From Pseudomonadota bacterium (lineage in GTDB: Bacteria; Pseudomonadota; Gammaproteobacteria; Steroidobacterales; GCA-2729495), in assembly GCA_963205295.1 (NCBI GenBank), contig CAUJIY010000121.1:1-55323 (forward strand): DNA of 55,323 nucleotides. Direction: 5' to 3'. Of the stretch, positions 9,844 through 23,568 are shown piece by piece. Below the pieces are notes generated by a model. The model saw nothing but the letters and a program-made list of their open reading frames with translations. It had not been told where the DNA came from and made no database searches. The position numbers and the translations under genes are program-made. The first letter of the stretch is position 1; each line of letters opens with the position of its first letter.

Positions 9844-10197
9844 TCAGCCGTCACTCAGGACGACGCGGGTGACGACCCCGGTGTCGAGGTTGTAGAAGAC
9901 CATGAGCATGCGCGGGGCATCGCGCGGCTCGGCCGCGGCGGCGCGCAGCGCCGCCAGCGTGACCGGTGTGCCGGCGCTGCCGACGAAGAAGGCCGTCCTG
10001 CGATCGGAGCGCAGCCTCACCGGCTTGCACTGGTCGCATTCGCGCACCACGACGCTGCCACCCGGTGCCGACGGCAGCGTGACGTGGGCGGTATCGCTCT
10101 CGTAGGCGTTCTCGATGTTCTTCAGTGACGCCGTTGCCGCGGCGCTCCACAGCGCCAGCGCGGCCGCTGCCAGGGTGATGGTGATACGCGTGTGCAT
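9844..10197 (-). CDS. Small exported CxxC protein of the minor-pilin operon, A copy
   Basis: 117 residues: a signal peptide (MHTRITITLAAAALALWSAAATA), then a basic domain with one CDQC motif in the context VRECDQCKPVRLR, and a C-terminus ending RVVLSDG. I do not recognise a named family. A homologue sits at the same place, between pilX and pilY1, in operon B. The shared pattern is VRxCxxCxPxxLRxxxxTxxxV plus a C-terminal RVVL. Such conservation of place and motif argues for a real role in pilus tip assembly, for example thiol chemistry or chaperoning of PilY1, but that is inference. It is not in the position of Pseudomonas PilY2, which follows pilY1. The chosen start gives a clean signal peptide and lies 23 bases after pilX. 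Confidence 0.8.
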   Translation of the reverse strand: MHTRITITLAAAALALWSAAATASLKNIENAYESDTAHVTLPSAPGGSVVVRECDQCKPVRLRSDRRTAFFVGSAGTPVTLAALRAAAAEPRDAPRMLMVFYNLDTGVVTRVVLSDG

Positions 10198-10220
10198 GGT
10201 GGTGGGCTCCTTGGGTCCGG

Positions 10221-10685
10221 TCACAGGCAGCCGTTCGGGCCGATGAGGAAGAAATCCTGCTGGTGTACCGAGCGGGCGGCGCGGGCCGAACTGCCGGTCG
10301 AGGTGATCTGGAAGTGATAGGCCTTGAACGAGTCGGCGCTGCCGTAGTCCTCGCTGAAGCCCACCACGGGCGTGCATTCGATGTAGTCGGTGCTGGCTTC
10401 GAATTCGCCGAGGTCGTTGTCGTCGGCATCGGTCACTGCGGTCGCGGGCGTGGCCTTCGGACCGCAGCCGGCGCAGAAGGGGCCGTCGTTGATCGCGACT
10501 TCAACGCCGGTTTCGGCCAGCTGGAAGGCCTGCTCGGTGTACTGCGCGTTGCCGGCCATGGTCAGCCCGAAGGTGGCGCTGCTCATGGTCGAGACGGCGA
10601 GCACGGACAGCACCAGCAGCAGCACCAGGCCGATGATCAGCGAGGCGCCGCGCTGACGCGACGGCAGGGTCAGGTGGGTGTTCAT
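10221..10685 (-). CDS. pilX: Minor pilin PilX, operon A
   Basis: 154-residue PilX-type prepilin: leader RQRG, then ASLIIGLVLLLVLSVLAVSTMSSATFGLTMAGNA. Mature position 5 is not glutamate, as expected for GspK/PilX-like subunits at the very tip. The AQYTEQAFQLAETGVE segment is the PilX N-terminal domain signature. There are several cysteines (FCAGCG, ECT, GC). Its start codon overlaps the pilW stop by ATGA, so the two are translationally coupled. Confidence 0.92.
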   Translation of the reverse strand: MNTHLTLPSRQRGASLIIGLVLLLVLSVLAVSTMSSATFGLTMAGNAQYTEQAFQLAETGVEVAINDGPFCAGCGPKATPATAVTDADDNDLGEFEASTDYIECTPVVGFSEDYGSADSFKAYHFQITSTGSSARAARSVHQQDFFLIGPNGCL

Positions 10686-11644
10686 GGCAGTCCCGAGTAA
10701 CCGAGGTAGTTGCGCAGCACGATGGTCTTGTTGACCAGCGTGCGGCGGATGTTGTCGCCGGGTGCATAGTCAGCGACGTTGGCGTAGTCGTAGCTGGCGC
10801 CATCGACGTAGCCGACTTCCGGCCTTTCGGCGCGCAGCATCAGCCAGAAGCGCACGGCGATGATCTTGGCGTTGGCGTCGAAGGCGGGATCGGCGGGCGT
10901 GACCAGCCCGTCGTTCGGATTGACGTAGCGCTCGACGTCGTTGTCCGGAACCGGGCCGCGGTCGACGCCGAGCTGGACCTGCAGGTCCTCGACGCCGGCG
11001 ATGACCTCCTGGTCCTGCAGCACGCCGTCGATCAGCGTCATGCGGCGCAGGGAGGGCACGTTGGCGCCGAGCGAGGAGGAGTTGGCGATGTAGTAGGCGT
11101 GGGTCTGCCAGTCGAAGGTGCAGCAGGCCGGGGTGGCGGGCGGCGCGCCGTCGTTGAACAGGCGGCTGCGGGTGCGGTCGCTCTGCACCTGCACGACGTT
11201 GGCGGTCGGCACGGTCTGCTGCCCGCTCGCGTGGCGCACCACCAGCACGTCGGTGCCAGCGCGGTAGTTGTCCTCGAAGGCGGGGCAGGGCAGCGTGTAG
11301 GCGGCGTCGGCGGCTTCGACACCCAGGGCAGTGTCGAGCGCCCAGGCCGTGATGTCGGTGCCGTCAGGGCAGGTCACCACGATGCCGGCGGGTACCTCGA
11401 CGTAGGCGTCCATGCTGTGCATGCCCCAGTTGCGGGCCAGGCGGATGTCCGGCTGGATCGAGTCGAGGGCGAAGCGCAGGTTTTCCTGCAGTCGTTCCAC
11501 CGCGTCGCTGGTGCGATAGGTGGTGCGCGTCTGGGAGAAGATGGCGATCACGCCGATCATGAGGAAGGCGCCGATGACCAGCGTCACCATCATCTCGACG
11601 AGGCTCACGCCGCGCTCGAACCGGTTGCCGGTGTTCGCGTTCAT
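10682..11644 (-). CDS. pilW: Minor pilin PilW, operon A
   Basis: 320-residue prepilin. The leader ends in ERG and the mature protein begins VSLVEMMVTLVIGAFLMIGV, with Glu at position 5. LQENLRFALDSIQPDIRLA, DVLVVRHASG and a C-terminal TLVNKTIVLRN segment are characteristic of PilW. It forms the tip complex with PilV, PilX and PilY1. I chose the start that shares one base with the pilV stop (TGATG); longer in-frame extensions would place extra sequence before the leader. Confidence 0.92.
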   Translation of the reverse strand: MNANTGNRFERGVSLVEMMVTLVIGAFLMIGVIAIFSQTRTTYRTSDAVERLQENLRFALDSIQPDIRLARNWGMHSMDAYVEVPAGIVVTCPDGTDITAWALDTALGVEAADAAYTLPCPAFEDNYRAGTDVLVVRHASGQQTVPTANVVQVQSDRTRSRLFNDGAPPATPACCTFDWQTHAYYIANSSSLGANVPSLRRMTLIDGVLQDQEVIAGVEDLQVQLGVDRGPVPDNDVERYVNPNDGLVTPADPAFDANAKIIAVRFWLMLRAERPEVGYVDGASYDYANVADYAPGDNIRRTLVNKTIVLRNYLGYSGLP

Positions 11645-12123
11645 CACAGTTGCACCGCCAGTGCGTACTGGAGCGGTACGTCGACGCCCGGTTCCGCCCA
11701 GTTGATGGTGATGGTGTAGCTGCTGATCTCCGCCCCGGGTACCGTAACGACGCTGGCTGCACCCTGCGGCAGGAGCGCCGTCACCGACTGCTTCCACCAG
11801 AAGATGTCGTCGGCAGCGAGCGTGGCCGGCGCGCAGTCGGCCGCACCGTTGACGCAGTCGCCTTCCACGCCGGCGCCGGCCGCGTCGACGTCGTAGCCGG
11901 CGCGGGCCGTGGGGTTGGCGCGGATGCGGTCGGCCATGTCGGAGGCGAGGTCGATCGCCACCGTGCGGTAGACCGAGGTGCGCCCGGCGCGCAGTCCCTC
12001 GACGTAGAGGGCGGCGATGCCGAGCATGCCGACCGAGATCACCACCATGGCGACCAGCGACTCGACCAGGGTGAAGCCGCGGTCGCGGCGGACGGAGCGA
12101 GGCGTGTGGAGTATGGGGTTCAT
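11644..12123 (-). CDS. pilV: Minor pilin PilV, operon A
   Basis: 159-residue prepilin with leader RDRG, then FTLVESLVAMVVISVGMLGIAALYVEGLRAGR. The SLVAMVVISVGMLG helix and the following AIDLASDMADRIRANP segment identify PilV. Cysteines in GDCVNGAADCAP match the same loop in the operon B copy (NACVNGPGDCDP). It lies 9 bases after the fimT gene. Confidence 0.93.
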   Translation of the reverse strand: MNPILHTPRSVRRDRGFTLVESLVAMVVISVGMLGIAALYVEGLRAGRTSVYRTVAIDLASDMADRIRANPTARAGYDVDAAGAGVEGDCVNGAADCAPATLAADDIFWWKQSVTALLPQGAASVVTVPGAEISSYTITINWAEPGVDVPLQYALAVQL

Positions 12124-12132
12124 GCGGGATTC

Positions 12133-12744
12133 TCAGCAGCCGCCGACGGGATTGCCCTGCACGTCAGCCTGCAGGCGGTAGATCTGGGGCCGGCCGGTCG
12201 CGCCGATGGCGATCCAGCGGCCGGCGGCGACATCGTTGCCGTCGGCATCCTTGCCGGTGCTGGTGTCGCCACGGGCATCGCAGAGCTGGATGTTCCTGAT
12301 ACCGGGACCGCCGGCTGCCGTCTGCGGAAAGCCGCTGCCGGCGAACTGCAGGTAGGGCAGGGCAGCGGCGTCGATGGCGAAGGTGATGCCCTCGGCCACC
12401 GGCGGATGGGCGGCGATGACGTCCTCGCCGCCGTCGACAGAGAGATCGCCATTGGCGTCGATGAATACCAGCCAGCCGGTACCGCCGGCGTCGCAGTCCG
12501 GATCCGCATCGGCCCAGGTGCTGCTGGCGCACAGCGTCACGGTGCTGCGGCGCTTGACGGCTTCGGTGCGTGCCAGGTGGATGCTGGTGACGAGGTCGTT
12601 GGCCGCCGCCGCCATGCGGTTGTTGGCGATGAACTGCGTGAACGACGGGATGCCAAAACCGAGCACCATGCCGGCGATCAGCAGCGTGATCATCAGCTCG
12701 AGGATGTTGAACCCGGCCTGGCGGGCCGACCCCGTGTGGTTCAT
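12133..12744 (-). CDS. FimT/FimU (GspH-type) minor pilin, operon A
   Basis: 203-residue pseudopilin: leader RQAG, then FNILELMITLLIAGMVLGFG, with Glu at mature position 5. The FIANNRMAAAANDLVTSIHLARTEAVKRRSTVTLCAS block defines the GspH/FimT domain. The C-terminus ends NPVGGC, as does the equivalent protein in operon B (NPLGGC). FimU/FimT proteins link the tip complex to the major pilin. The start overlaps the upstream gene's stop by ATGA. Confidence 0.9.
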   Translation of the reverse strand: MNHTGSARQAGFNILELMITLLIAGMVLGFGIPSFTQFIANNRMAAAANDLVTSIHLARTEAVKRRSTVTLCASSTWADADPDCDAGGTGWLVFIDANGDLSVDGGEDVIAAHPPVAEGITFAIDAAALPYLQFAGSGFPQTAAGGPGIRNIQLCDARGDTSTGKDADGNDVAAGRWIAIGATGRPQIYRLQADVQGNPVGGC

Positions 12745-13286
12745 GACGGCTCGCACCCTGTCGCCGTGGCTTCGGCCGGGTGATCGCCAAGGGCAGGCTG
12801 GCCGCTGGCGCGTACGAACACCACCCGGCTCGGCGTGGTCGTGCCCGGGATGCAGAAGTCGAACTCACCGTGGCCGGTACCGGCGATGCGGCCGTTCGGC
12901 CCGAAGCTCAGGCCGTCGGCGAAAGCCGTCGAGCGCAGGACCAGACCCGGAAGAGCCGCAGCGTGTTCGAGCAGCTGGTCGCCGGTGGCGCGCGCGCCGT
13001 CGGCGTCCGCATCGACGAATGTGATCCAGCCCGCTTCCCACGCGGTGCCGTCGCACTGCTGTCCGGTGGCGCTCGCGCAGACCGTCACGGAACGATTGCG
13101 CATCACCGCCTCGCTGCGGGCCAGGTGCAGCGTGGTGACCAGCTGGTTGACACCCGTCGCCTGGCGGTTGCGTTCGGCGAGGGCCTGCACGCCGGGCACG
13201 GCGAACGCCACGCCGAGGCCGGCTACGGCGAGTGCGGCGAGCGTTTCGCTGAGCGTGAAGCCGCGGTGGCGGGAGCGGTCGGTCAT
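12741..13286 (-). CDS. FimT/GspH-type minor pilin, first gene of operon A
   Basis: 181-residue pseudopilin: leader RHRG, then FTLSETLAALAVAGLGVAFAVPG, with Glu at mature position 5. The RQATGVNQLVTTLHLARSEAVMRNRSVTVCASATG block is the GspH/FimT signature. It is the promoter-proximal gene of operon A, which then runs fimT, pilV, pilW, pilX, CxxC protein, pilY1, pilE. Overlapping or closely spaced starts and stops imply one transcript. The region upstream is unusually AT-rich near 13436-13497, but that patch lies about 150 bases away. Confidence 0.9.
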   Translation of the reverse strand: MTDRSRHRGFTLSETLAALAVAGLGVAFAVPGVQALAERNRQATGVNQLVTTLHLARSEAVMRNRSVTVCASATGQQCDGTAWEAGWITFVDADADGARATGDQLLEHAAALPGLVLRSTAFADGLSFGPNGRIAGTGHGEFDFCIPGTTTPSRVVFVRASGQPALGDHPAEATATGCEPS

Positions 13287-18867: not shown

Positions 18868-18957
18868 GTCCAATCTGCCTTTTCCACTTGAGAAATCATG
18901 CGATCTCGGTGAGGATCGGGCCGTGGTCGATGAGATTGACAGGGTGGAGGACAAGGC

Positions 18958-20166
18958 ATGAACCGGAAGGATTCGCCGGACATCGAGCGGCGGCATTTCG
19001 TGCAGGGCGTCGGCGCAGCATTGTCGCTGGCACCATTCGTGGCACGTGCAGCAGTTGCGGCCGATGCGCAGCCCGCCGCTGTCGCCTCTGGTGTGGCCGC
19101 TGCCGGCTCCCAACGCAACAACACGTTCCTCAAGGCCTGCCGGGGCGAACCCGTCGAGCACACTCCCATCTGGATGATGCGCCAGGCGGGCCGCTATCTG
19201 CCGCAATACCAGAAGGTCATGGAGAAGAGCGACTTCCTGACTGCAGTGCGTACCCCGGAAATTGCTGCCGAACTGACGATCCAGCCGGTGGACATCCTCG
19301 GTGTCGACGCGGCGATCTTCTATTCGGACATCACGACCACCGTCGTGCCCATGGGCATGCACCTGCGCTATTCGGATCAGACCGGGCCGTCGTTCGAGAA
19401 CCCCATTCGCGGCATGGCCGATGTGCAGCGGCTGGTCGTGCCGGATGACCCGGCCGATGGTCTCGGCTTCGTCTACGACGCGCAGCGTATCTGCGCGCGT
19501 GAACTGGCCAACCGGGTGCCACTGATCGGCTTTGCCGGCGCACCTTTCACCATGGCTGCCTACATGGTCGAGGGCCGGGCGGGCCAGTCGTTTGCGGAGT
19601 TCCGGCGATTCCTGTTCGCCGAGCCCGGCGCCTTTGCGATGCTGATGGACAAGGTGGCGCGGCATACGGCGCGATATCTCAAGGCGCAGGCGGCGGCCGG
19701 TGCCGATGCCCTGATGTTGTTCGATTCGAACGCGGGCCTCGTCGGGCCGCACGACTACGAGACCCTGAACCTGCCCTACGTCCGGCAGATCATCGCCGAG
19801 ATCAGGTCCACCGGCGTACCGATCCTGTATTTTGGCCTGGGGGCGCACGCCTCCCTGAAAGCCATCGGGGAGTGCGGTGCCGATGTCATCGGCATCGATT
19901 ACGGCATGCCGCTCGACGGGGCCATCGCACAGCTCGGCGCGAAGGTCTCGGTGCAGGGCAACATGGAACCCTTCTGCCTCTACCAGACCCGCGGCGAGAT
20001 CCGTGCGCGTGTTGCAGCGACCCTGGAGGCCGCCAGCGGCGCGCGCGGGCATGTATTCAATCTGGGCCACGGAGTGCCGCGCTATTCGCCGGTGGATAAC
20101 GTCAAGGCGGTGGTGGATTTCGTGCACGAGTTGAGCTCCGGTGCAGGCGCCGGAAAGGACGCATGA
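18958..20166 (+). CDS. Uroporphyrinogen decarboxylase (HemE) homologue with twin-arginine signal
   Basis: 402 residues, about 50 longer than usual HemE because of an N-terminal export signal: ERRHFVQG (R11, R12) followed by a hydrophobic stretch and a cleavage site near AVA-AD (residue 34-35). This is a Tat-type signal, which would carry the folded enzyme to the periplasm. The body is true HemE-like rather than a methyltransferase relative: RQAGRYLPQY (R75, R79), YSDIT (D124), YMVEG (Y202), and NLGHG (H371), matching the substrate arginine, catalytic aspartate, tyrosine and C-terminal histidine of HemE. It would convert uroporphyrinogen III to coproporphyrinogen III. It is first in a cluster with a TonB-dependent receptor and an exported HemD homologue. 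A GGAGGA ribosome site precedes the ATG. A housekeeping hemE is expected elsewhere. Confidence 0.9.
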   Translation: MNRKDSPDIERRHFVQGVGAALSLAPFVARAAVAADAQPAAVASGVAAAGSQRNNTFLKACRGEPVEHTPIWMMRQAGRYLPQYQKVMEKSDFLTAVRTPEIAAELTIQPVDILGVDAAIFYSDITTTVVPMGMHLRYSDQTGPSFENPIRGMADVQRLVVPDDPADGLGFVYDAQRICARELANRVPLIGFAGAPFTMAAYMVEGRAGQSFAEFRRFLFAEPGAFAMLMDKVARHTARYLKAQAAAGADALMLFDSNAGLVGPHDYETLNLPYVRQIIAEIRSTGVPILYFGLGAHASLKAIGECGADVIGIDYGMPLDGAIAQLGAKVSVQGNMEPFCLYQTRGEIRARVAATLEAASGARGHVFNLGHGVPRYSPVDNVKAVVDFVHELSSGAGAGKDA

Positions 20167-20231
20167 CCGTCTGCGAAGCTTTCTGCTGAAGTAAACGAAC
20201 AGAAACCAGGTCAGGATCCGGGGGAGGAGAC

Positions 20232-22616
20232 ATGTCCAGGAAGATTTCGGCGATGGCCCTGACGGGCGTGATCGGCAGCGTGCTGAGCGCTACGCCCGCA
20301 GTGGCCGTGGAGGAGGTCGTCGTCACCGCGAAGATCAGGGAGCAGGCCCTGCAGGATGTGCCGCTGTCGATCACCGTGATGAACGAGAAGGTGCTGGAAG
20401 ATCTCGGCATCGCGACCTTCGACAACCTGACCCGGTGGGTTCCGTCCCTGGACATACGCACGCCCTCCGGGCGGCGCCAGTCGACGATCACCATGCGTGG
20501 CCTTTCCCCGAACACCACGGTGGAACGGGTGCGCAGCGTCTCGGTGTTCATCGACGGCATCTATATCAGCGGTTCCATCGCCAGCCTGCCACTGCAGGAC
20601 CTCGAGCGGCTCGAGGTGGTGCGCGGCCCGCAGGCGACGATGTTCGGCCGGGCGACCTACACGGGCGCCATCGATCTGGTCACGCGAAATCCGAAAGTCA
20701 CGGAACTGACCGGCAGGGTTGACGCCGGCTATTCGGAGTATTCGGTCAACAGCACCGGCCGGCAGATTCTCAACGGCAGGCTGGACTTTCCCATCATGAC
20801 GGACCGGTTGTGGGGCTCCGTGTCCGGCGCCATCGACGATACGGAGAGTTTTGCGTCGACACCGTCCGGCAGTACCGAGGCCGGTGGAGAAAAGACGTCT
20901 TCCTATGCTGCGGTGCTATATGCAGAGCCGACCGAGGGGCTGTCGGTCAAGCTGCGCTACAACCACTCCGAGGACAAGGACGACACGTCGTTCGTGCACA
21001 TCACCCATCCGGACGAGTGGATCGCCGACGGAGTGCAGACCGCCGTAGTCGGGAACAACACCATCTGGCCGGACGGCGAGGTGATGGACCCGCGTGCCGG
21101 CACGACCGAATGCCAGCCGCACTACGGTCCCACGGATGCCACTCCGGGTTCGGTCGGACGGGGCATTCCCGCAGCCTGCGGCCAGGAAATGGAACGCGAC
21201 TTCCTGTCGTGGATTTTCGATTACGACCTGAGCGGCTACACCCTGTCGTACCACGGCGGCTATTTCCGCTCATTCCTGGACTCGAACAACGACTTCCGGC
21301 CGCGCGGCAACGTCGACGGGTTGGGAGTCGACCCGTTTTTCGGGCCGGGCAACGGCATCAACCCGGGCGCCAAGTCGCCGACGGGCTATATAGCGACGGC
21401 CGAGAAGTATCAGAGCGATTCCCACCAGCTGCGCCTGGTGTCGCCCGCCGAGGGGCAGTTCCGGTGGCTGGCAGGCGTGTACTACTTCGATGAAGACAAC
21501 ATCAATTACCGGGTGGACAACTACGTGCCGATGAACTCTTGGACGGGTTCCATCACTGGGGTGTCGCGCATCGTCGATCGTGGACCCGAGGAGACCGAAA
21601 ACGTTGCCGTGTTCGGGCAGGTCGAGTACGACCTGATGGAGACACTGACGGCATCACTGGAGTTGCGGTACGAGCGGGATACGATCCGGCAGGTGATGTG
21701 CCCGGATTGCCGCACCCAGAGCTACGCCGACCAGAGCGGCAGCGACCTGGAGGAATCGGAGAAGGACGTGCTGCCGCGCGTGACGCTGACCTGGATGCCT
21801 TCGCCTGAGCAGACCTACTATGCGCTTTACTCCGAGGGCATGCGCAGCGCCCGCTTCAACGACGAAGAGCCGGCCAATTTCCCGGGCAATTTTGCCGATT
21901 ACGTGTACGTCAGGCCGGAGCAGCTGAAGAACTACGAGGTCGGCGCCAAGAACCTGTTTCTCGAGAACCGGCTGCAGACCTCGCTCGCGCTGTTCTACAT
22001 GGATCTGAAGGACCAGCAGCAGTCGGCCCAGCTGCCGGATTCGACACTGTCGTTCACGCAGAACGTGGGCAAATCGAGCGTCTGGGGATACGAGTTCGAG
22101 GCTTTCGGACGCATCACGGAACAGGTCAGCGCCAACATCGGCATCGGCTACGCGGACCACGAATACGACACGGCCTTCGTCCCCGGGTCGTCGTTGGACC
22201 GGCGCATTCTCAATGGCCGCACCACGAAGGGCCTGACTTCGGTCGGTGTGCCGAGCACCATGGTCACCGGTGGAGTGGCCTACGAGACCACGGTGGCGAC
22301 GCACTACGACCTGATGCTTCGTGCCGACGCCTCCTATCGCAGCAAGGCGTACGTCGACGTGGCCAATCAGGCATGGATTGGTGACAGCACGCAGGTCAAT
22401 GCGCTGGCCAGCCTGGGCACGGAGGTCTGGACCCTGACCCTGTTCGCCCGCAACCTGTTCGACGACAGGACCTCGCCGGGAACCTATTCCGGCACCAGCA
22501 CCTGCACGTACACCAATCCGGCCTTCACCACCTTCACCAGCGCGCTGCAGCGCTGCTCTGGCCTGGGTGTGTCACGAGGCCGGGAGGTGGGTGCCACCAT
22601 ATCGCTCAAGTTCTGA
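20232..22616 (+). CDS. TonB-dependent outer-membrane receptor
   Basis: 794 residues. The signal peptide is cleaved near AVA-VEE (residue 25), followed by the TonB-box-like EEVVVTAK. The plug domain (about 40-160) has QDVPLSITV, TMRGLSPNT and LERLEVVRGPQATMFGR, and a 22-strand barrel ends in the outer-membrane terminus GATISLKF. It is in the large group of proteobacterial receptors annotated generically for siderophores, cobalamin, heme or plant compounds; substrate cannot be read from sequence. It lies between the exported HemE and HemD homologues, so a tetrapyrrole or related ligand is the leading hypothesis. A strong GGGGGAGGAG ribosome site precedes the ATG. Confidence 0.93.
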   Translation: MSRKISAMALTGVIGSVLSATPAVAVEEVVVTAKIREQALQDVPLSITVMNEKVLEDLGIATFDNLTRWVPSLDIRTPSGRRQSTITMRGLSPNTTVERVRSVSVFIDGIYISGSIASLPLQDLERLEVVRGPQATMFGRATYTGAIDLVTRNPKVTELTGRVDAGYSEYSVNSTGRQILNGRLDFPIMTDRLWGSVSGAIDDTESFASTPSGSTEAGGEKTSSYAAVLYAEPTEGLSVKLRYNHSEDKDDTSFVHITHPDEWIADGVQTAVVGNNTIWPDGEVMDPRAGTTECQPHYGPTDATPGSVGRGIPAACGQEMERDFLSWIFDYDLSGYTLSYHGGYFRSFLDSNNDFRPRGNVDGLGVDPFFGPGNGINPGAKSPTGYIATAEKYQSDSHQLRLVSPAEGQFRWLAGVYYFDEDNINYRVDNYVPMNSWTGSITGVSRIVDRGPEETENVAVFGQVEYDLMETLTASLELRYERDTIRQVMCPDCRTQSYADQSGSDLEESEKDVLPRVTLTWMPSPEQTYYALYSEGMRSARFNDEEPANFPGNFADYVYVRPEQLKNYEVGAKNLFLENRLQTSLALFYMDLKDQQQSAQLPDSTLSFTQNVGKSSVWGYEFEAFGRITEQVSANIGIGYADHEYDTAFVPGSSLDRRILNGRTTKGLTSVGVPSTMVTGGVAYETTVATHYDLMLRADASYRSKAYVDVANQAWIGDSTQVNALASLGTEVWTLTLFARNLFDDRTSPGTYSGTSTCTYTNPAFTTFTSALQRCSGLGVSRGREVGATISLKF

Positions 22617-22650
22617 GGGTGGCACCAGGGCGATTCGCGGAGAACCGGTG

Positions 22651-23568
22651 ATGCGCGGGAGAACTGGCCGGGCAGCCTTGACGGTCGCCGTCCTTGGCGG
22701 TGCGATGCTGTCGGTGCTTGCGTCGGCGCAGCCGGCCGCACCGCGTGAGACCGGGCTGATTGCGCGCACGGCGCTGCCGCTGTACGGAAAGACCGTGCTG
22801 TTCACGGCGCCGCGCAATTACGCTGGCCGGCTCGGCCAGTTGCTGATCGAGCGTGGTGCCCGCCCGGTCTGGATGCCGACCATCTCGATCGAGCCACTGG
22901 CCGATTACAGCGCGTTCGACGAGGTCATTCGCGAGCGGGACAAGTACGACTGGATCGCCTTCACCAGCCGCAACGGCATCGACGCCTACCTCAACCGCCT
23001 CGAGGCGCTCGGGCTGCGGCCGGCGGATGTCGCCGGCCTCAAGACCGCGGCGATTGGCAACGACGCGCGCCTGCTGGAACAGGCCGGACTGAAGCCGGCC
23101 CTGGTGCCGCCGGCACCCAGTCCGACTGGTATCGTCGAGGAGTTGCGCCGCCGCGGGCAGGTCAGTGGCGTGGTCATCGTGCCGGCACCCGATGTGGTCG
23201 GCATGGACGAACCGGCGGTCGTGCCTGACTTCATCCGCGGCCTCGAGGCGATCGGCCTTAAGACGCGCCGCGTGCCGGCCTACGTGACTGCACGCGAGAC
23301 GGCCAACCTCGAAGTCGGTACGCGGATGCTGCTTGCCGGCGAGGTGGACATCGTCGCCTTCACGAGCCGCGGCGAGATCGACAGCCTGCTGCTGCACCTC
23401 GGCGAGCGACGCGACGTGCTGAACAGCCGTGCGGCACTGGCCTGCTTCGGGCCGATCACGTCGGCAGGGGCACGGCTGCGCAATCTCACGGTCGACATCG
23501 TCGCCGCGGATTATTCGCGTTTCGAGGGCTTCGTGGCTGCGATGGAGGACTGGGCGCGCAAGCAGTAG
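22651..23568 (+). CDS. Uroporphyrinogen-III synthase (HemD) homologue with Sec signal peptide
   Basis: 305 residues. A Sec signal peptide (basic RGRTGR, hydrophobic ALTVAVLGGAMLSVL, cleavage ASA-QP at residue 26) precedes a complete HemD fold: YDWIAFTSRNGIDAYL, the AIGNDARLLEQAGLKPALVP segment, VDIVAFTSRGEIDSLL, and ACFGPITSAGARLRN leading to YSRFEGFVAAM. Normal HemD is cytoplasmic, about 250 residues and lacks such a signal. HemD converts hydroxymethylbilane to uroporphyrinogen III, the substrate of HemE, the first enzyme in this cluster. The start at 22651 has GGAG 8 bases upstream and gives the clean signal; an in-frame ATG 84 bases upstream lies inside the receptor gene. Confidence 0.87.
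   Translation: MRGRTGRAALTVAVLGGAMLSVLASAQPAAPRETGLIARTALPLYGKTVLFTAPRNYAGRLGQLLIERGARPVWMPTISIEPLADYSAFDEVIRERDKYDWIAFTSRNGIDAYLNRLEALGLRPADVAGLKTAAIGNDARLLEQAGLKPALVPPAPSPTGIVEELRRRGQVSGVVIVPAPDVVGMDEPAVVPDFIRGLEAIGLKTRRVPAYVTARETANLEVGTRMLLAGEVDIVAFTSRGEIDSLLLHLGERRDVLNSRAALACFGPITSAGARLRNLTVDIVAADYSRFEGFVAAMEDWARKQ

Follow-up and report, generated by a model that had tools for sequence, protein, structure and literature searches.

Cells assemble heme and related compounds in the cytoplasm, and scavenging is generally regarded as the transport of heme that is already complete. Why, then, does the genome of an uncultured gammaproteobacterium encode homologues of HemE and HemD that both start with putative export signals and whose genes flank a gene for a TonB-dependent receptor (TBDR)? 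We analysed this locus in a stretch of 55,323 nucleotides (GCA_963205295.1, contig CAUJIY010000121.1), hereafter the window, which is contig 121 of a draft genome (G000; 2.97 Mb, 172 contigs, 94% complete). Other G numbers denote related genomes used for comparison, and the named carriers of module genes are metagenome-assembled genomes (MAGs). Open reading frames (ORFs) and Pfam matches agree with the tight plus-strand cluster that a first-pass annotation of the sequence had described, with intergenic gaps of 65 bases (HemE/TBDR) and 34 bases (TBDR/HemD). Our preferred, though tentative, interpretation is that the trio may be an extracytoplasmic module for tetrapyrrole processing.

The HemE-like protein comprises 402 amino acids with a URO-D domain at residues 53-391 (398.7 bits, Pfam), and it scores above the NCBIfam hemE equivalog cut-off (356 versus 302.95 bits). 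Alignment with canonical HemE confirms that Arg75, Arg79, Asp124, Tyr202 and His371 match, i.e. the substrate arginines and further residues that the first-pass annotation had regarded as kept. R75, Q76, A77, R79, D124, Y202, S257 and H371 are retained in all four leader-bearing HemE homologues; position 257 is serine in these four and threonine in the five other aligned HemE rows. As counterparts of R75, R79, D124, Y202, S257 and H371 in human UROD we assume R37, R41, D86, Y164, S219 and H339. The top PDB match that Foldseek returned for the AlphaFold model (predicted local distance difference test, pLDDT, 81) is human UROD with coproporphyrinogen III (1r3y), with a template modelling (TM) score of 0.93, normalised to the target, and 38% identity. 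For the mature parts, ratios of non-synonymous to synonymous substitution rates (dN/dS) are 0.07-0.16 among four HemE genes and 0.06-0.24 among six HemD genes, with several dS values in this set above 1. Both genes are under purifying selection.

The HemD-like protein (305 amino acids) contains a HEM4 domain that reaches 130.2 bits against a Pfam gathering score of 27.5, and it stays far below every NCBIfam HemD equivalog cut-off (best 59.9 versus 275). Its AlphaFold model (pLDDT 87) supports the complete fold noted earlier: the 12 highest PDB fold matches in Foldseek are all uroporphyrinogen III synthases, at TM scores (query) of only 0.42-0.67, so the lobes are not positioned exactly alike. 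Lower-ranked matches, from rank 13 onward, include periplasmic sugar-binding proteins. A PDB sequence search using the HemD profile gave no match at E 0.01. Its identity to cyanobacterial and Chloroflexales relatives of HemD is 35-46%; pairwise scores do not exceed 46.6 bits with HemD of the order's other families and reach 79 bits with the HEM4 protein of G008. A pattern scan of species genomes retrieved 65 HemD relatives, with ten loci in nine family MAGs and the rest mostly in cyanobacteria and Chloroflexota, along with one Thermodesulfobacteriota MAG and one Deltaproteobacteria MAG. The HemD tree contains 69 rows after removal of duplicates and omits HemD of the order's other families, for which pairwise alignments were too short or weak. 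The HemD relative in HT-58-2 gave rise to the idea of a tolyporphin-like natural-product cluster, which was rejected: loci L095, L097, L101 and L104 show varied contexts and no such cluster, and the HemD relatives at these four cyanobacterial loci were taken for ordinary HemD.

All leaders and export signals were judged by eye. In the HemE-like protein, a leader of the twin-arginine translocation (Tat) type covers about residues 1-35 (ERRHFVQGVGAALSLAPFVARAAVA); it reads MNRKDSPDIERRHFVQGVGAALSLAPFVARAAVA, with the twin-arginine motif first, then a hydrophobic segment, and an AxA-like end. An RRxFVxG motif is common to the HemE leaders of four species, G000, G003 (MDRRHFVQGVGAALALGP), G034 (ARRRFVKGVGAALTVAPL) and G062 (GRRHFVQGVGAVLSLAPL). 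The HemD-like protein starts with a leader of the general secretory (Sec) type (MRGRTGRAALTVAVLGGAMLSVLASA), and a hydrophobic HemD leader is present in eight of the ten carrier genomes of the family (G000, G003, G034 on contig 81, G035, G013, G011, G060 and G062). In G014 and G026, neither the HemE nor the HemD homologues have a leader, and it is also missing from a second HemD copy of G034 (contig 88). The export signals proposed for both proteins are thus conserved among homologues, and mis-called starts were rejected as their source. For HemE this rests on the cross-species conservation of the leader and on the sequence GGAGGA, which precedes the ATG at 18958 by six bases. No ATG lies between 18958 and the conserved HemE domain; in-frame GTG/TTG codons at 19000, 19021, 19039 and, as the last, 19093 are formally possible starts. 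The HemD ORF reaches back to a GTG at 22567, and the leader begins at the ATG at 22651.

The receptor (794 amino acids) matches the TonB plug (PF07715) and barrel (PF00593) domains above the Pfam cut-off and has a signal peptide and a TonB-box-like EEVVVTA, both recognised by eye. It is 61-64% identical to the receptors adjoining HemE and HemD genes in G003 and G034. A search of related genomes, which the first-pass annotation had advised, showed that the trio indeed recurs in these two genomes, so that HemE, HemD and TBDR genes occur together in three genomes and in two gene orders. In G062, the HemE and HemD genes are found on separate contigs. A HemD-like gene adjoins or lies near a TBDR gene without a neighbouring HemE gene in G035, G060, G062 and G013. 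Genes in related loci were called by a simple codon-usage caller, and names without a Pfam or NCBIfam assignment were given by eye.

HemE-like proteins (>640 bits, profile A3) are encoded in G000, G003, G034 and G062 and, with three each, in G014 and G026; in 196 genomes drawn from the order, no genome besides these six passes E 1e-110. They form a clade apart from the order's own HemE (Shimodaira-Hasegawa-like approximate likelihood ratio test, SH-aLRT, 100; branch 0.79) in a quick tree of 39 rows with long branches and duplicate rows dropped. The HemD-like profile strongly matches (>430 bits) ten of the 40 family genomes, and an ordinary HEM4 protein of G008 reaches 116 bits.

Table 1. Position of the trio and of the putative ribosome-binding sequence in the window.
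Feature	Position	Strand	Basis or remark
HemE-like gene	18958-20166	+	ORF, Pfam, NCBIfam
TonB-dependent receptor (TBDR) gene	20232-22616	+	ORF, Pfam
HemD-like gene	22651-23568	+	ORF, Pfam
Shine-Dalgarno-like GGAGGA	18946-18951	+	six bases 5' of the HemE ATG

A run of pilin-like genes lies on the minus strand of the window (9844-13286), and a homologous run adjoins the trio in G034 (L066 2495-6078). This may reflect a shared ancestral location.

No known route to heme seems to be available to the host lineage, yet it makes siroheme. HemE, ferrochelatase and AhbA/B were counted in 37 genomes of the family (f1), G000 among them, and in 23 genomes of the order that belong to other families. Classical HemE is present in a single family genome (G029), and strong ferrochelatase matches (>200 bits) in four (G011, G025, G027 and G034), whereas HemE, HEM4 and ferrochelatase are each found in 20 of the 23 genomes of the other families. 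Weak partial URO-D matches occur in G004 and G006. Siroheme-dependent (Ahb) heme synthesis was considered for the host and rejected, as an AhbA/B domain was seen in G029 alone among the 60 genomes. In G000, neither HemH nor AhbA/B nor any other recognisable heme route was found; HemF/N and HemG were not searched. The four family genomes with strong ferrochelatase and no classical HemE may complete imported porphyrins to heme.

The first-pass annotation had expected separate cytoplasmic hemE and hemD genes, an expectation that failed in G000: BLAST of the genome yielded no second HemE, and no second HEM4 was found. Since the genome has only the siroheme branch, the pair is no spare set beside a housekeeping pathway to heme. 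One further, weak URO-D match in G000 (57.8 bits) is of the methyltransferase type, with a corrinoid-protein-like gene adjoining by eye. At this locus (L073, G000:C1, 8147-13550), and similarly at L074 in G006, the methyltransferase-type URO-D gene is accompanied by corrinoid-protein, ferredoxin-type and methyltransferase genes, assigned by eye, which perhaps constitute a corrinoid-dependent demethylation cluster.

HemB is encoded by 32 of the 37 family genomes and HemC by 31, with some matches partial. Genes for CysG, a CysK-like protein, a short HemA-like protein, HemC with a 200-residue tail, HemB and HemL are grouped in G000 (contig 126) and in seven other family genomes inspected; in G003, cysG is cut by the contig end. 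Pfam confirmation of CysG, HemC, HemB and the aminotransferase, and a weak GlutR_N match, were obtained for G000 only. By eye, a cysB-like gene is found beside the siroheme set in seven of the eight genomes and a cysH-like gene in five. The siroheme operon (L163, G000:C126, 1354-8474; also L164-L169 and L172) encodes HemA-like proteins of about 290-320 amino acids. Because this gene set is kept, the cytoplasm presumably supplies uroporphyrinogen III for siroheme, and the lineage seems to retain its synthesis solely for this purpose.

Most family genomes with hemB and hemC show no HEM4 match, and hence the HemD step of siroheme synthesis must there fall to another protein. The 200-residue HemC tail is conserved, with motifs (R.WVSG..SW..LA..G.WVEG and HHACGPGKT) that resemble HemD by eye only, and it may be a very diverged HemD. 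Pfam found no HEM4 in this tail at E up to 10 in five rows, and a profile of the tail (nine-row alignment A7) gave no significant match to HemD of the order (A6) or to A1. A 5.2 kb contig of G008 (G008:C42, L071) contains a second, canonical-type hemC followed by a SUMT-HemD fusion; this set is possibly a contaminant or an extra corrin/siroheme set.

How such a module would work can be outlined as follows. The TBDR would take up a tetrapyrrole of external origin, probably a uroporphyrin-like one, and deliver it to the periplasm. Judged by its residues and fold, the Tat-exported HemE homologue would decarboxylate acetate side chains of the reduced ring in the periplasm, while the Sec-exported HemD-fold protein may bind or rearrange the same macrocycle. 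A protein with a PNPOx fold (flavin barrel) and a CxxCH motif, together with a protein of the flavin adenine dinucleotide (FAD) amine-oxidase family, both with export-type leaders and encoded elsewhere in G000, would probably drive the steps between porphyrin and porphyrinogen. For these redox partners, co-occurrence is demonstrated for the CxxCH PNPOx protein only. With no ferrochelatase match in G000, heme is probably not what the module finally yields. Rather than to rebuild heme, it would more likely serve to scavenge or degrade foreign tetrapyrroles or to produce a metal-binding porphyrin; candidate outcomes are degradation, iron release and a metal-binding porphyrin. In its fullest form, the pathway would run entirely outside the cytoplasm, from import by the TBDR and redox priming in the periplasm to a rearrangement by the HemD-like protein and a decarboxylation by the HemE-like protein, with uroporphyrin-like pigments of foreign origin as substrates; it would serve a lineage that has lost heme synthesis and have a cytoplasmic counterpart in sister genera. 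This full version seems less likely than not.

The related genomes G014 (98% complete) and G026 (78% complete) bear on the origin of the substrate. No match to hemB or hemC was found in either of them, so that hydroxymethylbilane, the HemD substrate, is probably not made there, to judge from the missing HemC match. Both nevertheless keep HemE and HemD genes, and an imported substrate is therefore the simplest reading for these two genomes. Neighbours of the leaderless HemE and HemD genes in these genomes encode FAD proteins of the geranylgeranyl-reductase superfamily (at 78.9 bits, short of the 158.8 cut-off), a ferredoxin of the YfhL type, proteins with a PNPOx fold and binding proteins of the OppA type; the G014 locus adds a TBDR and an Opp-like ATP-binding cassette (ABC) transporter. 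By alignment, the HemE paralogues fall into three types: one is intact, one has R79 replaced by proline, and one has Y202 replaced by phenylalanine. The first-pass annotation had suggested salvage of an imported or leaked precursor. Import is made likely by G014 and G026, but salvage in the classical sense of recovering heme is unlikely in G000, which lacks a recognisable ferrochelatase.

The CxxCH PNPOx-fold protein, with an export-type leader, recurs near HemE and HemD genes. At a cut of 300 bits, which we chose, 15 of the 40 family genomes encode it, i.e. all ten with a HemD-like gene and 5 of the 30 without; the next matches drop to 42 bits, and at E 0.001 the count rises to 35 of 40, since other PNPOx proteins match weakly. 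In G000, contig 131 carries the gene, with three neighbours: an FAD amine-oxidase-family gene whose product has a Tat- or lipoprotein-type leader, a second TBDR gene and a further PNPOx gene. In G017, it adjoins a receptor gene whose product is 62% identical to the TBDR of the window. Outside the family, locus L094 (3600-15715) of the Deltaproteobacteria MAG Dive96_bin3.122 encodes three FAD proteins related to the geranylgeranyl-reductase-like ones, two PNPOx-like proteins, an FrhB-like protein and a leaderless HemD, and contains a CxxCH PNPOx gene split into two ORF calls. It looks like a related tetrapyrrole reductase set.

Several observations weigh against an extracytoplasmic processing module. 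HemE requires porphyrinogens, which are oxidised by air; a periplasmic reductant must therefore exist, and its identity is here a guess. The co-occurrence of the CxxCH PNPOx and HemD-like genes (Fisher p 3.5e-6) ignores phylogeny, and G001, G005, G017, G032 and G033 carry the former without the latter. G035, G013 and G011 carry HemD-like genes but no HemE at all, so the two are not obligate partners and the HemD-like protein need not make uroporphyrinogen III. The TBDR reaches no NCBIfam receptor cut-off (siderophore model 147.7 versus 223.5 bits, heme model 80.9 versus 316.9), and among PDB structures it matches siderophore and pesticin receptors best; it is thus closest to siderophore receptors, and a porphyrin ligand is not favoured, though neither supported nor excluded. 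Finally, G000 is a draft at 94%, in which hemE, hemD or hemH may have been missed.

Among the alternatives, the HemE and HemD homologues could have been repurposed as periplasmic tetrapyrrole-binding proteins, as a hemophore or as substrate-binding proteins for the TBDR, and perform no catalysis. The two-lobed HEM4 fold, the weaker fold matches to periplasmic sugar-binding proteins, the repeated placement of HemD-like genes near TBDR genes with no adjacent HemE, and the altered active sites of HemE paralogues in G014 and G026 are all consistent with this idea. We consider it less likely, since the catalytic set is kept in all four leader-bearing HemE homologues, the mature domain is under purifying selection and the flavin and FAD partners suggest chemistry.

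The module might instead work on endogenous uroporphyrinogen III that is leaked or exported from the siroheme branch, with a coproporphyrin-type metallophore returning through the TBDR. Coproporphyrin metallophores are known from other bacteria, the nearest scored classes of the TBDR are siderophore receptors, and the hemA-like, hemC, hemB, hemL and cysG genes are grouped in G000, G003, G034 and G035. However, G014 and G026 hold HemE and HemD genes in the absence of a hemB or hemC match, and the trio contains no exporter gene, which makes this explanation quite improbable.

It is very unlikely that the signals are non-functional and the pair simply represents the cytoplasmic HemE and HemD of the organism, used for heme or siroheme, even though G000 has no other recognisable HemE or HEM4. 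The leaders are conserved across four species and a ferrochelatase was not found in G000. Moreover, 31 of the 37 family genomes encode neither this nor a classical HemE and 28 of these 31 keep hemB, so that this HemE is not a housekeeping enzyme, and a HEM4 match is absent from most family genomes that carry hemB and hemC. The patchy spread of the cluster (HemD-like in 10 of 40, HemE-like in six family genomes) might suggest a leftover of horizontal transfer that serves nothing today, but this is scarcely credible given dN/dS values of 0.06-0.24 and the recurrent gene association.

Processing of foreign tetrapyrroles outside the cytoplasm thus remains our preferred reading of the trio. Export-signalled HemE and HemD homologues in bacteria with no apparent heme synthesis suggest that foreign tetrapyrroles are remodelled before import. 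If true, this would provide a route for environmental tetrapyrrole turnover, with two simple enzymes to examine. To our knowledge, there is no earlier case of HemE and HemD acting outside the cytoplasm on scavenged rings, and no description of an exported HemE or HemD was found in titles and abstract openings of the open-licence PMC literature.

In comparison with HemE (TIGR01464/PF01208), the homologue in the window shares the fold, the active-site residues and a score above the equivalog cut-off, but differs by its Tat-type leader, by its separate clade, with 32-44% identity to HemE of the order's other families, and by a genomic background in which classical heme synthesis is missing. The HemD homologue has the HEM4 fold in common with HemD (PF02602), but carries a Sec-type leader and falls below all NCBIfam HemD equivalog cut-offs. 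The coproporphyrin-dependent heme pathway proceeds via HemE, CgoX, CpfC and ChdC, and HemE followed by an FAD amine-oxidase-family enzyme would formally give the same order of steps; in contrast to that pathway, no ferrochelatase was found in G000 and the proteins bear leaders. HmuS of Bacteroidota (PMC13227078) is a chelatase-family protein with a signal peptide, which its authors place in a periplasm-exposed position, and it contributes to the release of iron from heme. HmuS and the trio share the combination of a tetrapyrrole-enzyme homologue with a signal peptide, a TBDR and a host without full heme synthesis. HmuS belongs to the CobN/ChlH chelatase family, whereas the proteins of the window belong to the HemE and HemD families, and Pfam gave no chelatase-family match among the three window proteins. 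In kind, HmuS is the nearest precedent.

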